Source of the DNA: Aliarcobacter lanthieri
GTDB taxonomy: Bacteria; Campylobacterota; Campylobacteria; Campylobacterales; Arcobacteraceae
Length of the DNA stretch: 64,000 nt
Assembly (NCBI RefSeq): GCF_013201625.1
Contig: NZ_CP053839.1
Coordinates: forward strand, 806,001 to 870,000
Reading direction: 5' to 3'
Part shown: in pieces, positions 31,344 through 39,523 of the stretch
Numbering within the stretch: position 1 is the first letter of the stretch
Layout: every line of letters starts with the position of its first letter
Notes under the pieces: generated by a model
The model's database searches: none
What the model saw: the letters and a program-made list of their open reading frames with translations, nothing else
Told to the model about the DNA's origin: nothing
Made by a program: the position numbers and the translations under genes

Positions 31344-31369
31344 CCTTTCTTTTCTACGGAGAAATGGAA

Positions 31370-32029
31370 ATGAAAGGTATTTACATAGTAGGAACTGGTG
31401 GCTTTGCTAGTGAAGTTACAGAATATATTTTAGATAATAACGAATTTGAAATAAAAGGTTATTTTGATATATCTGAAGATGATTATAAAAAACACAATTA
31501 TGAAGCACCATTTCTAGGTAATGAAAATAAGTATAATTTTTCTACAAATGATAATATAGTTATTGCCATAGCAAATTATCACCTAAGAGCAAAAATCTAT
31601 CAAAATTTATCACAAAAACAAGTTAATTTTCCAAAAATAATCCATAAAAGTTGCTTTGTTTCTAAGTCATCACAGCTTGTAGAAGGAGTTATTTTATCTC
31701 CTTTTGTAACTATTACATCTAATTCAAAAATTGGTATAAATTTTCATGCAAATATTTATAGCTATGTTGCACATGATTGTATTATTGGAAATAATGTAAC
31801 ATTTGCACCAAGTGTAAAGTGCAATGGAAATGTAATAATAGAAGATAATGTTTATGTAGGTACAGGAGTAATAATTCATCAAGGAAAACCTAATAAACCT
31901 TTAGTTATTGGTAAAAATTCTGTTATAGCAGCTGGTTCAGTTGTTACAAAAAGTATTTCACAAAATATAACAGTTTTTGGTAACCCTGCTATTGAACTTA
32001 CAAAAGAAAATATGAAAAGGAGATATTAA
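31370..32029 (+). CDS. NeuD-family sugar acyltransferase (second)
   Basis: About 219 residues. It has an N-terminal Rossmann-like domain (KGIYIVGTGGFASEVTEYIL) and a C-terminal left-handed beta-helix with hexapeptide repeats (VEGVILSPFVTITSNSKIG, VYVGTGVIIHQG, IGKNSVIAAGSVVTKSI). It would add an acyl group to an amino or hydroxyl group of a surface sugar. Because the probable LegH precedes it, it may be an alternative N-acyltransferase or a legionaminic O-acetyltransferase. ATG 31370 is preferred over ATG 31364 because the CGGAG SD is 8 bases before the former and only 2 before the latter. Confidence 0.82.
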   Translation: MKGIYIVGTGGFASEVTEYILDNNEFEIKGYFDISEDDYKKHNYEAPFLGNENKYNFSTNDNIVIAIANYHLRAKIYQNLSQKQVNFPKIIHKSCFVSKSSQLVEGVILSPFVTITSNSKIGINFHANIYSYVAHDCIIGNNVTFAPSVKCNGNVIIEDNVYVGTGVIIHQGKPNKPLVIGKNSVIAAGSVVTKSISQNITVFGNPAIELTKENMKRRY

Positions 32030-32030
32030 T

Positions 32031-32462
32031 ATGAATTTATTTTTTAATAATATTTCTATAGAAAATATTAAAATTGGAATGAAAGCTAGTTATTCACAAA
32101 CTATTACAGATGCTGATATAAAATCTTTTGCTGGTGTTAGTGGAGATAGAAATCCAGTACATTTAGATGAAGAATATGCTGAAAACTCTAGATATAAAAA
32201 AAGAATTGCTCATGGAATGATGACAGCTTCATTTTTTTCAGCACTTTTTGGTACGAAAATACCTGGAGTTGGTTGTGTATATGTATCTCAATCACTAAAT
32301 TTTAAAAGACCAGTATATGTTGGAGATACGGTTACAGCTGTTGTTGAAGTTACACAAGTAGATTTATATAAAAATAGAGTATTTTTTAAAACAACTTGCA
32401 AAGTTAAAAATAAAATTGTTACAGATGGAGAAGCTGAAATTTATATTCCAAAAATTAAATAG
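32031..32462 (+). CDS. MaoC-like (R)-specific enoyl-CoA hydratase
   Basis: A 143-residue single hot-dog-fold protein of the MaoC/PhaJ family. The hydratase motif is visible as FAGVSGDRNPVHLDEEYA (Asp-x4-His), followed by RIAHGMMTASFFSALFG. Such enzymes hydrate trans-2-enoyl-CoA to (R)-3-hydroxyacyl-CoA. Placed one base after a sugar acyltransferase, it may supply (R)-3-hydroxybutyryl-CoA for an N-acyl group on the sugar; this is inference, though 3-hydroxybutyryl sugars are known in bacterial surface glycans. Confidence 0.82.
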   Translation: MNLFFNNISIENIKIGMKASYSQTITDADIKSFAGVSGDRNPVHLDEEYAENSRYKKRIAHGMMTASFFSALFGTKIPGVGCVYVSQSLNFKRPVYVGDTVTAVVEVTQVDLYKNRVFFKTTCKVKNKIVTDGEAEIYIPKIK

Positions 32463-32522: not shown

Positions 32523-33395
32523 GTGATAAGCTATATAAAAGGAAATCTCTTTACATCAAATGCTAAAATACTTGTAAATGCAGTTAATACTGTTGGTATT
32601 ATGGGCAAGGGTATCGCTGCCGATTTTAAAAGAATATATCCAAAAATGTTTGAAGAATATAAGTATCTATGTGAATCAAAAGAGTTAGATATTGGAAATT
32701 TATTTTTATATAAAACACAAAATAAATGGATATTAAATTTTCCTACAAAAAAACATTGGAAAAGCCCTTCAAAGCTTGAATATATAGAAGAAGGATTAAA
32801 AAAGTTAGTTACTCAAGCTAATGAACTACAATTAAATGACATAGCTATGCCAAAACTTGGATGTGGAAATGGTGGTTTAGATTGGGAAACACAAGTAAAA
32901 CCACTTGTAGAAAAATATTTAAAAAAATCTCCTATAAATGTATCTATATATGATTTTGATAAAGATATTATTCCAGAGCATTTAACAAAAAAAGATATAG
33001 AAAAATGGCTTAACTCAAAGCCTAAATCAATTAATTTTTCAATATTTTTTGAAGATTTAAAATCTATTTTTAGAGATAATTTATTATCAAAAGAAATTAT
33101 TTTAAATAATGAAAAATATAATATAGAATATAATGAAAAAGATGAATATTTTATTTTTAAATCAAGATTGAAAAGTTTTATAATTTCAAAAGAAGATTTT
33201 AAAAATATATTTTATACACTCAAAAACTTAGGGAAACTTTGTGAAGCTGATTTATTTAGTGAATTGCAACAATATAAAATAGAAATATTTGAGTTTTTGT
33301 TAAAATTACCTTATATTCTAAAAAATGTAGATAAATTAATTTTAAACTATACTAAAAATTTAGAAGAAGTTGAAATAGTTTATGAACTTAACTAA
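32523..33395 (+). CDS. darG: DarG-like macro-domain protein (predicted antitoxin)
   Basis: A 290-residue protein. Residues 1-150 are a macro domain of the DarG kind: LVNAVNTVGIMGKGIA (16-32, ADP-ribose binding), LNFPTKKHWKSPSKLEYI (71-88) and MPKLGCGNGGLDW (109-121). DarG removes ADP-ribose from thymidine in DNA, reversing DarT. Residues 160-290 are a helical region of no family I recognise; canonical DarG also has a C-terminal DarT-blocking domain. It starts GTG 32523 with SD AAAGGA. It overlaps the darT-like gene by 14 bp. Sugar synthesis needs no such protein, so this is a foreign module in the operon. Confidence 0.82.
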   Translation: MISYIKGNLFTSNAKILVNAVNTVGIMGKGIAADFKRIYPKMFEEYKYLCESKELDIGNLFLYKTQNKWILNFPTKKHWKSPSKLEYIEEGLKKLVTQANELQLNDIAMPKLGCGNGGLDWETQVKPLVEKYLKKSPINVSIYDFDKDIIPEHLTKKDIEKWLNSKPKSINFSIFFEDLKSIFRDNLLSKEIILNNEKYNIEYNEKDEYFIFKSRLKSFIISKEDFKNIFYTLKNLGKLCEADLFSELQQYKIEIFEFLLKLPYILKNVDKLILNYTKNLEEVEIVYELN

Positions 33396-34362
33396 AGAAC
33401 AATTTTTAGATAAATTTCAGGAAAATTTATCTAAACAATTTAACGGAACTCAAAATTGGTGGACAAAATCTTTATTTCACTTTACAGATATAAAAAATGC
33501 TATTTCCATAATAGAAAATGGAAAAATTTATAGTAGAAAAAAAGCAATAGAATTAAATTTGATGGAAAATGACAATGCAAATGATAATGTCATTTTAAAT
33601 ACTTGTGATGAACATAAGCAATTTGCAAGATTATATTTTGGACCAGCAACTCCTACTCAAAAAAACAACGAAGGTATAAAACCAAAAGATAAAATAGTCA
33701 ATAATGCTCATTGTCCAATTCCTATAATGTTTGTTTTTGATTTTAAAAAGATATTTTTACTTCCAAATATTAGATTTACAGATGGTAATTTGGCTACAAA
33801 TCCAAATGTTTATGAAAATATAGAAGATTTAAATAATTTAAATTTTAATTTGATTTATCATAGAAGTTGGCTTCAAAATGATGAAATGAAATCTAAAGTA
33901 ATAAATGCTAGACATTCAGAAGTCATAGTAAAAGATGAACTGTGTTTAGAAAATAATTTAAAATCTATACTGGTAAGATCAAATGCCGAAAAAGAGTTTT
34001 TATTATTTAATTTGAGTGATAAAACAAGAAAGTTGTATCAAGATAAAGTATTTATACAACCATTATCTGGAGTTTTTACAAATGATTGGTTGTATATAGA
34101 TAAAATTTTAGTTCTTTATAATCAGATTGATATTTACTGGCATAAGTGTAATAATTTGCAATGTCAAAATAAATATAAGCTTTATGTAGAACTTAATAAT
34201 TTGGAAGGAACCAACACAAGGTATCTATTGCTTGAAAATTGGTATTTAGAAAACAATTTATTAACAATATCTCTTCCTAGAGAATTTATGTTTTTGTATT
34301 TTAAAATAGATATTTATATAGATGATATTAAAATTTATAGTAATGTTATAAAAGGAGAGTAG
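33382..34362 (+). CDS. darT: DarT-like DNA ADP-ribosyltransferase (predicted toxin)
   Basis: A 326-residue protein whose first ~215 residues match the DarT (DUF4433) fold. SLFHFTDIKNAISIIENGKI carries the NAD-binding His33. ARLYFGPATPTQ (82-93) is the family strand that usually reads FRPRTPTQ; here the second Arg-type positions are Gly and Ala. NARHSEVIV (175-183) carries the presumed catalytic Glu180. Residues ~220-326 form an extra beta-rich C-terminal part not expected in classic DarT. The gene order (antitoxin first) is opposite to canonical darT-darG. NeuB/LegI starts at the base after its stop. Confidence 0.75.
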   Translation: MNLTKEQFLDKFQENLSKQFNGTQNWWTKSLFHFTDIKNAISIIENGKIYSRKKAIELNLMENDNANDNVILNTCDEHKQFARLYFGPATPTQKNNEGIKPKDKIVNNAHCPIPIMFVFDFKKIFLLPNIRFTDGNLATNPNVYENIEDLNNLNFNLIYHRSWLQNDEMKSKVINARHSEVIVKDELCLENNLKSILVRSNAEKEFLLFNLSDKTRKLYQDKVFIQPLSGVFTNDWLYIDKILVLYNQIDIYWHKCNNLQCQNKYKLYVELNNLEGTNTRYLLLENWYLENNLLTISLPREFMFLYFKIDIYIDDIKIYSNVIKGE

Positions 34363-37563: not shown

Positions 37564-37586
37564 TAAATATTTATGAAAGGTAGAAA

Positions 37587-38966
37587 ATGAATTTCAATTT
37601 TAGTATAGAAAATCTAGGAAATATAAAAAAAGCCAATTTTGAAATAAAACCTTTGACTATTATTGCTGGAGAAAATGGAAGTGGTAAAAGTTTCACTACA
37701 AAGAGCCTTTATTGTTTACTAGATGCCTTAAACAAAGATTATCTATTTGATTATATACAATCAAATATAAATGGTATAAAAAGAGCGATATTTTTCTATG
37801 AATCAGAACTTTTAAACAAATCTAAAAAAGATATAAATTTTATAGAAAATTTTCAAGAGAAATATTTGAATTTTTTTGATTTTATTCAAGATGAACTTCA
37901 AAAGTTAAATTTAGAGCAACAAGAGAAAATGTTACAAAATTTCTCTTTAGAATTAAAGCAACACTATAAACAATTAAAAGAATATTTTGAAGAACAAAGT
38001 TCTTTAAAAAAGTTTCAAAGAGTAAGTGAACATACAGATAATATTTTAACATCATATAGTAATATAATACAATTTGAAAGTAATTTTAAATATATAATCT
38101 CTGAACAAATAGAAAAGAATTTAAAATCAAACTTTCAAAAGAACTTTCAAATATCAAATATAGAAACACTCATACAAAAAGATGAAAAGGTAAAATCAAT
38201 AGATTTAAAAATAGATAGTATAGGAAATGTACTTATAAAAGATAAACAGTATATAGATTTTTCTTTCAAATCAAAAGGTATTGTCCAGATACAAAATTTA
38301 AAAAATATAGTATATATAGATTCCCCTGCATATTTAAAAGTGAGAAAAGGGCTTGAAAGTAGATATAGAGGATTACTGGGAATAAAAATAGAAGATGAAA
38401 AATATTTAAAAGGCTATCCATTATATTTAGAAAGATTATATGATTTTTTAGATAAAAGATATTTATATGAACCAGACTTTAAAAACTTAAGTGAAGAACT
38501 TCAGAAACTTATGAATGGAAAACTAAATATTACAAAATCTGGAGAAATAGAATATTTAGATGAAAAAAATAATTCTATGCCATTATCTCTTACTGCTATG
38601 GGAATTACCAATATTGGGCTTATAGATTTGTTACTTAGAAATAATATTATAAATAAGGGTTCTTTTCTTATTATGGATGAACCAGAAGCACATCTACACC
38701 CAAAATGGCAAGTTGCACTTATAGATATACTTTATAAGGTTGCACAAGCTGGAGCAAATATAATAATAGCAACTCATAGTATAGATATGATAAAAGCTGT
38801 AGAATTACTTATAAAAAAAGATGAAAAAGCAAAAGATTTAATAGCTATAAATAAAATGCCATATAATGAAAGTTTTAGCAAATTAAAAGAAGAAGAAAAA
38901 ATAGAAGAGATTTTAAGTGATCTAAGTTCTCCTTTCTATGATATGTATATTAGGGGACTTAGTTGA
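37587..38966 (+). CDS. AAA/ABC-type ATPase of a two-gene module
   Basis: A 459-residue SMC-like/AAA_21-type ATPase. Walker A is IIAGENGSGKSFTTKSLYCL (residues ~25-44). A long charged coiled-coil-like insertion (about 75-215) follows. Signature-like SLTAMGITNIGLIDLLL, Walker B SFLIMDEPEAHLHPKW and the His switch IIIATHSIDMIKAVE close the core. Such ATPases occur in many phage-defence pairs (PtuA, AriA and OLD-like types), but I cannot match it to a named one. It overlaps its partner by 4 bp (TTGA) and lies between ptmE and ptmG, with no evident glycan role. Confidence 0.85.
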   Translation: MNFNFSIENLGNIKKANFEIKPLTIIAGENGSGKSFTTKSLYCLLDALNKDYLFDYIQSNINGIKRAIFFYESELLNKSKKDINFIENFQEKYLNFFDFIQDELQKLNLEQQEKMLQNFSLELKQHYKQLKEYFEEQSSLKKFQRVSEHTDNILTSYSNIIQFESNFKYIISEQIEKNLKSNFQKNFQISNIETLIQKDEKVKSIDLKIDSIGNVLIKDKQYIDFSFKSKGIVQIQNLKNIVYIDSPAYLKVRKGLESRYRGLLGIKIEDEKYLKGYPLYLERLYDFLDKRYLYEPDFKNLSEELQKLMNGKLNITKSGEIEYLDEKNNSMPLSLTAMGITNIGLIDLLLRNNIINKGSFLIMDEPEAHLHPKWQVALIDILYKVAQAGANIIIATHSIDMIKAVELLIKKDEKAKDLIAINKMPYNESFSKLKEEEKIEEILSDLSSPFYDMYIRGLS

Positions 38967-39499
38967 ATATCTTAAAATATAGAGAATTTATAGATACAGA
39001 ATGTTCAAATAATCAACAAATAAAACTAGATAAAAAAGCTATAAAAATTGATGGAAATAATAGTTTAAAAATGACTATAGGTTGTGGAGATTTAAAATCT
39101 TGTGATTATTTAAGATATAAAAAAGATAAGATATTACTTATAGAAATATCTGATTTGAAAAAACAATTTACTGATATTTGTTCAAAAACTGAATTATTGT
39201 CAAAAGATACAAAAAAACAATTAGGAAAAATTTTAACAAAAAAAATAGACCCACGAAATATAATTAGAGATGAGACAAGATCAAAATATCTTGAAACAAT
39301 AAATATATTAAATGAATTGACTTCATATGTTAAATTTAATATGAAAAAATCAAAAATATTTATAATAGCAATTTGTTCAAATAATATCTCAGATACTATT
39401 GCTTTACAGTATTTAGAAAGAGATTTAAAAATAAGTTTAAATAATTTTGTAAAAGATGTAAGAGTAATATTAGCAAATGATTTAGAAAAATTTATTTAA
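38963..39499 (+). CDS. Small partner of the ATPase, possible PD-(D/E)XK-like fold
   Basis: A 178-residue soluble protein starting with TTG 38963, coupled to the ATPase by a 4-bp overlap. Residues 45-68 (KSCDYLRYKKDKILLIEISD, then LKKQ) resemble the C-D...E-x-K pattern of many uncharacterised PD-(D/E)XK nuclease-like proteins: Asp48, Glu61 and a nearby Lys66 or Lys67. The exact ExK is E-I-S, so catalysis is uncertain. A middle KKQLGKILTKKIDPRNIIRD and a hydrophobic strand IFIIAICSNN follow. No family is recognised. Confidence 0.7.
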   Translation: MNILKYREFIDTECSNNQQIKLDKKAIKIDGNNSLKMTIGCGDLKSCDYLRYKKDKILLIEISDLKKQFTDICSKTELLSKDTKKQLGKILTKKIDPRNIIRDETRSKYLETINILNELTSYVKFNMKKSKIFIIAICSNNISDTIALQYLERDLKISLNNFVKDVRVILANDLEKFI

Positions 39500-39523
39500 A
39501 TTAAATATTGAGGAGAATTAAAT

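Follow-up and report, generated by a model that had tools for sequence, protein, structure and literature searches.

The closest described counterpart of the locus studied here is WonAB of V. cholerae, which consists of an OLD-type ABC ATPase and a PD-(D/E)xK partner, both of them required (PMC12137116). Its defence is abolished by the substitutions K34A, R182A, E300A or H333A in WonA or K71A in WonB, and it acts abortively, by growth arrest with translation shut-down (PMC12137116). Overproduced WonB is toxic, but only together with active WonA, which according to the authors rules out simple sequestration; they also assigned WonAB to a broader class, "OLD-ABC ATPase + novel REase", noting a similarity to PD-T4-4 (PMC12137116). 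PD-T4-4 (PMC9519451) itself joins an AAA_15 ATPase to a nuclease partner, and HEC-02 is a candidate two-gene system listed in PADLOC. ATPases of the same general kind are found in Septu/retron PtuAB, where the ATPase fold is alike and the partner PtuB is an HNH protein, and in PARIS, where AriA is related and the partner AriB is a DUF4435/TOPRIM protein.

The whole stretch of DNA analysed (64,000 nucleotides from Aliarcobacter lanthieri, called the window below) carries two intact open reading frames on the same strand, an ATPase gene (gene A) followed by the gene of a small protein (gene B), whose features are listed in Table 1. An earlier note, made from the sequence alone, had described the lengths of both proteins, their overlap and their motifs, all of which are confirmed, and had proposed a possibly undescribed defence module. 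We consider it likely, on the evidence assembled below, that the pair is a horizontally acquired two-gene anti-phage module composed of an OLD-type ABC ATPase and a partner with a putative restriction-endonuclease fold. The defence role put forward in the note is very probable, but "undescribed" is only partly right, because the architecture has been published (PMC12137116) and the more loosely similar HEC-02 and PD-T4-4 are present in PADLOC; yet the small protein is left uncalled by Pfam and PADLOC, and its clade differs at residue S63.

Compared with WonAB by published description and not by sequence, the pair in the window shows the same gene order, A then B, and the same combination of an OLD-type ABC ATPase with a small PD-(D/E)xK-like partner; in both ATPases the Walker A lysine is K34. 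The distance from the catalytic glutamate to the H-loop histidine is 32 residues in gene A and 33 in WonA (E300/H333; PMC12137116). The partners differ more: lysine K71 is essential in WonB, whereas gene B has a serine at the E-x-K position, and WonB is a protein of about 16 kDa, whereas gene B encodes 178 residues with an insert after E61. The published wonA qPCR primer had no match in the viral contigs. We therefore filed the pair as a divergent variant of the OLD-ABC ATPase + novel REase class and not as WonAB itself, because the lysine of (D/E)xK is absent from gene B and WonAB is known here by description only.

Table 1. Positions in the window of the two genes, their motifs and the two junctions
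Feature	Position	Strand	Evidence
Gene A, OLD/PtuA-type ABC ATPase, 459 aa, ATG start	37587..38966	+	PF13175, PF13304, PADLOC, PDB profile, Foldseek
Gene B, PD-(D/E)XK-like partner, 178 aa, TTG start	38963..39499	+	Partner-family profile matches, fold model, phrog_34018
4-bp overlap TTGA, gene A stop / gene B start	38963..38966	+	58/68 related pairs overlap too
Walker A GENGSGKS (K34), gene A residues 28-35	37668..37691	+	G28, N30, G33 and K34 invariant in 28 relatives
ABC-signature-like SLTAMG, gene A	38586..38603	+	Invariant in four clade members
Walker B / D-loop LIMDEPEAHLHP (catalytic E365), gene A residues 361-372	38667..38702	+	Motif position
H-loop ATHS (H397), gene A residues 395-398	38769..38780	+	E-to-H distance
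Gene B D30, family motif "FD"	39050..39052	+	Column D in 52/53 partners
Gene B D48, putative metal-ligand Asp, SCDY (residues 46-49)	39104..39106	+	Column D in 51/53
Gene B E61, putative catalytic Glu of (D/E)xK, IEIS (residues 60-63)	39143..39145	+	Column E in 52/53
Gene B S63, replaces E-x-K lysine	39149..39151	+	Column K in 46/53
Gene B K108, second invariant lysine, long helix 97-120	39284..39286	+	Column K in 52/53; helix from AlphaFold model
Left junction, ptmE stop to gene A	37564..37586	+	ptmE directly abuts ptmG in L033, L034
Right junction with ptmG's own ribosome-binding site GGAGAATTAAAT	39500..39523	+	Same motif before ptmG in L033, L034

Gene A clearly matches PF13175 (67.7 bits against a cut-off of 32.1, E = 1.9e-18) and PF13304 (59.3 bits against a cut-off of 27, E = 8.8e-16), with a weak SMC_N similarity in addition, and its best PADLOC models are HEC-02A (E = 3.1e-29), NsnB and PD-T4-4_A (E = 4.1e-25), with AriA matching as well (E = 3.3e-21). 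The closest PDB chains to the profile of the ATPase family are OLD, retron/Septu PtuA and PARIS AriA, and the top Foldseek matches of the AlphaFold model are PtuA chains (E = 5e-9). All three motifs expected of an OLD-type ABC ATPase, Walker A, Walker B and H-loop, are present; D364-E367 and L370-P372 are invariant in 28 relatives, the E-to-H distance falls within the family range of 32-33, and SLTAMG may be read as the ABC signature motif. A clear match to a known non-defence family would have counted against the earlier note; the known families matched are defence families (HEC-02A, PD-T4-4_A).

The small protein is a different matter. Gene B receives no family assignment in Pfam or NCBIfam and no reliable call in PADLOC; low-scoring matches to IL13, transaminase and ORC6 in Pfam, NCBIfam and PDB were taken as chance. 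Among the partners of the known systems, several HEC-02B models match a few of 49 partners of related ATPases (best E = 8.4e-7) and gene B at just E = 0.011, which is unreliable, and PD-T4-4_B matches neither gene B (E <= 1) nor any of the 49 partners (E <= 0.01). No HNH, DUF4435 or TOPRIM match of gene B was found in Pfam or PADLOC, in agreement with the earlier note, which had set the pair apart from the known ATPase-nuclease systems on this ground.

An alignment of the canonical partners revealed an invariant aspartate (SxDA), the invariant glutamate and lysine of E-x-K and a second invariant lysine in the next helix, together with the aspartate of an "FD" motif conserved at 98%. When gene B is aligned with 52 partners of related ATPases (53 rows), its residues D30, D48, E61 and K108 fall on these conserved columns, the SxDA of the family being SCDY in gene B. 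An alignment of four rows had put D48 in a wrong column; deeper alignments place it on the family aspartate. Both the aspartate and the glutamate of PD-(D/E)xK are therefore present in gene B (D48, E61), and the guess of the earlier note that these two residues mark a PD-(D/E)XK-like protein holds beyond chance (D 51/53, E 52/53), since nearly all partners keep D...D...E-x-K and the helix lysine. It was mistaken about the nearby lysines, among which the catalytic one is not to be found: S63 stands in its column, and the second family lysine, K108, is kept.

The serine is not peculiar to the window. It occurs at the E-x-K lysine position in L011, L143, L144 and the distant L036 as well, and four of the five members of the window clade have it; the fifth (L012), which is also the poorest match to the family, has another residue there, has lost K108 and has a poorly aligned D48. 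One reading of these changes is that the module is the same but gene B is nuclease-dead, a nucleic-acid-binding or regulatory subunit, with the effect coming from the ATPase or from changed chemistry. Speaking for it are the replacement of the lysine by serine in four of the five members and the further losses in L012; against it, D30, D48, E61 and K108 are retained in four members that share only about 35% identity in the small protein, and relocation of the lysine is established for PD-(D/E)XK enzymes. We regard this reading as rather unlikely. That four members still share D48, E61, S63 and K108 despite this divergence speaks against decay and for an active site that has been kept, possibly in altered form; K108 is the best candidate for taking over the role of the E-x-K lysine. 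It is possible, if somewhat short of an even chance, that the clade is distinct in kind, defined by a conserved serine (E-x-S-[D/N]), with catalysis moved to K108 or with other chemistry or another substrate, and that it represents a separate phage-borne type (phrog_34018) that detectors miss. A conserved E-x-S active site of this sort offers a natural test of effector cutting and of its control by the ATPase.

The relationship of gene B to the canonical partners was also assessed by profile. The partner HMM gives gene B a modest 12.3 bits (E = 0.0057) in a set of 1,074 ORFs, where it outranks every non-family ORF (next E = 0.068); the best of 2,000 shuffled versions of gene B reached 11.4 bits. 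The similarity is therefore not due to chance. When the clade profile is compared with the canonical partner profile, the two align over residues 24-121 (Prob 86, E = 4.7e-6). Among the PHROGs, phrog_34018 matches gene B (E = 5.6e-12) and phrog_25533 matches 18 of the 49 partners, so both types occur in phage or prophage sets; the two PHROGs are listed as of unknown function. Within the order, matches to phrog_34018 are limited to the window clade (window, G354, G468). Weak matches of gene B in G038, G066, G068, G073 and G162 (E = 7e-4 to 7e-3) lie in longer open frames (239-609 aa) and are probably chance, G038 being the one inspected.

The AlphaFold2 model of gene B, built from 49 sequences, is of moderate quality (pLDDT 75, pTM 0.71) and contains strands at residues 26-28, 49-53 and 56-62, a long helix at 97-120 and a strand at 131-138, an order compatible with the restriction-endonuclease core. 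Its best PDB match in Foldseek is the Can2 nuclease (prob 0.96), which at E = 0.02 is suggestive and not significant, as are the lower matches to R.BspD6I, Mus81, HamA, Card1 and a Holliday-junction enzyme; no match fell below E = 0.02, and nothing significant was found among viral models. The earlier note had named an unrelated fold as grounds for giving up its proposal. Such a fold did not appear, though the support for the expected one is weak (Can2, E = 0.02).

The pair belongs to a broad family. In the order and the phylum searched, the closest pairs are those of G462 (ATPase identity 52%), G354 (48%), G468 (42%) and G321 (38-39%), each with its partner directly downstream of the ATPase; in G354, G321 and G468 the neighbouring genes have no connection with glycans. 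In the ATPase tree, which leaves out the later found G468 and G462, the window, G354 and G321 form a clade with 100/100 support. Of 399 genomes from the order, 5 have the window clade; orthologous pairs are spread over four further families of the order but occur in few genomes. More distant pairs occur in G015, G101, G039, G214, G326 and G291, and in G301 with a broken partner frame. Three genomes of the order carry a pair directly before glyQ (L024:7105-8806, L025:1042-2503 and L026:240-1265), a recurrent insertion site where purE precedes the pair in two cases and where L026 has an intact ATPase beside a broken partner frame.

Searches with the two single proteins found no relatives in GTDB contigs, plasmids or phages. 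An alignment-based search did find them, and the pair is present in most of 79 GTDB loci (several phyla, including archaea) and of 26 viral contigs. With the canonical-partner profile, a recognisable partner of ~180-210 aa was located directly downstream in 73 of 82 distinct ATPase relatives; the other nine include the window, L012, one duplicate and cut or divergent loci. Overlap of the two genes was seen in 58 of 68 measured pairs. The co-occurrence across genomes that the earlier note had asked for is thus strict, with a co-conserved partner adjacent and downstream. A search of the viral contigs with the ATPases of the clade gave no close member.

The setting of the relatives points to mobile elements and to defence. 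A P2-like prophage of E. coli 600468 has a related pair situated between its genes for the replication endonuclease gpA and the portal gpQ, and homologues of both flank a pair in 12 of the 26 viral contigs. The gpA-gpQ interval is the hotspot that in P2 contains old and tin and that in prophages of E. coli contains further defence systems against phages (PMC9122126). The E. coli version occurs in 8 of 5,426 genomes; the relative at L147:12001-13936, in the tin/old position, is annotated merely as "AAA family ATPase" and "hypothetical protein". Another related pair (L149:3001-4966) fills much of a 5.9-kb mobilizable Klebsiella plasmid. The ATPase-plus-REase class is widespread, having turned up in the searches made here in several bacterial phyla, in archaea, in prophages and on plasmids, but it is poorly detected, its small partner lacking a reliable call by Pfam or PADLOC. 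This distribution makes a housekeeping role in DNA repair, as a RecF/SMC-like pair, very improbable: the RecF/SMC-type ATPase fold and the weak SMC_N similarity would suit it, but the pair is very patchy within the order, close operons of the same genus are without it, and its relatives travel in prophages and plasmids.

By analogy with these relatives, from which defence, sensing, dimerisation and the abortive outcome are all taken over, gene A would probably dimerise through its ATP sites and serve as sensor of infection and as licence for gene B. Once licensed, gene B would act as an effector of PD-(D/E)XK-like type, aborting the infection by cleaving nucleic acid or by arresting growth in some other way. 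A toxin-antitoxin-like pair, with gene B as a growth inhibitor curbed by gene A in the service of maintenance and not of defence, has in its favour the two overlapping genes on mobile elements, the related pair on the small Klebsiella plasmid and the toxicity of overproduced WonB (PMC12137116), but that toxicity requires active WonA (PMC12137116), and we hold such an arrangement to be improbable.

The pair stands in a glycan operon of the legionaminic/sialic-acid type, with NeuB-, NeuC-, nucleotidyltransferase- (ptmE-like), WbuX-type amidotransferase- (ptmG-like) and PseF-like genes. In two genomes of the same genus, G030 and G007 (L033 and L034), the pair is absent between ptmE and ptmG, which are separated by a spacer of ~25 nt; ptmG is about 93% identical to that of the window and is preceded by the same ribosome-binding site. 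The G+C content is 23.6% in the ATPase gene and 18.8% in the small gene, against 27.9 and 29.6% in ptmE and ptmG. That the pair might be a genuine component of the glycan pathway is suggested by its place between the ptmE-like and WbuX/PtmG-like genes and by a distant pair in G015 that also lies beside glycan genes, but we find this scarcely credible, as ptmE and ptmG are adjacent without the pair in G030 and G007 and the other orthologous pairs adjoin unrelated genes. The pair is therefore foreign to the glycan operon, as the earlier note had maintained, because the flanking genes meet without it in two same-genus genomes and the closest pairs are found elsewhere. The region shows no terminator-like site, and the pair is therefore probably transcribed as cargo of the glycan operon.

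The G015 pair, from another species of the genus, is of the canonical E-x-K type and lies inside a glycan locus (L021:9573-11385), where it adjoins a PseF-like gene. In the window, a DarTG-like pair at 32523-34362, upstream of neuB in the same operon, is a second defence module there (DarG macrodomain, PADLOC E = 4.9e-63; DarT, PF14487, E = 2.7e-23), and it is missing at the corresponding place in L033 and L034. Defence modules can thus ride as cargo of surface-glycan operons, two of them here, outside the reach of searches for defence islands. A second NeuD/PglB-type acetyltransferase gene and a small MaoC/HadB-like dehydratase gene (31364-32462) adjoin the DarTG pair; neuB comes straight after the first NeuD-type gene in L033 and L034.
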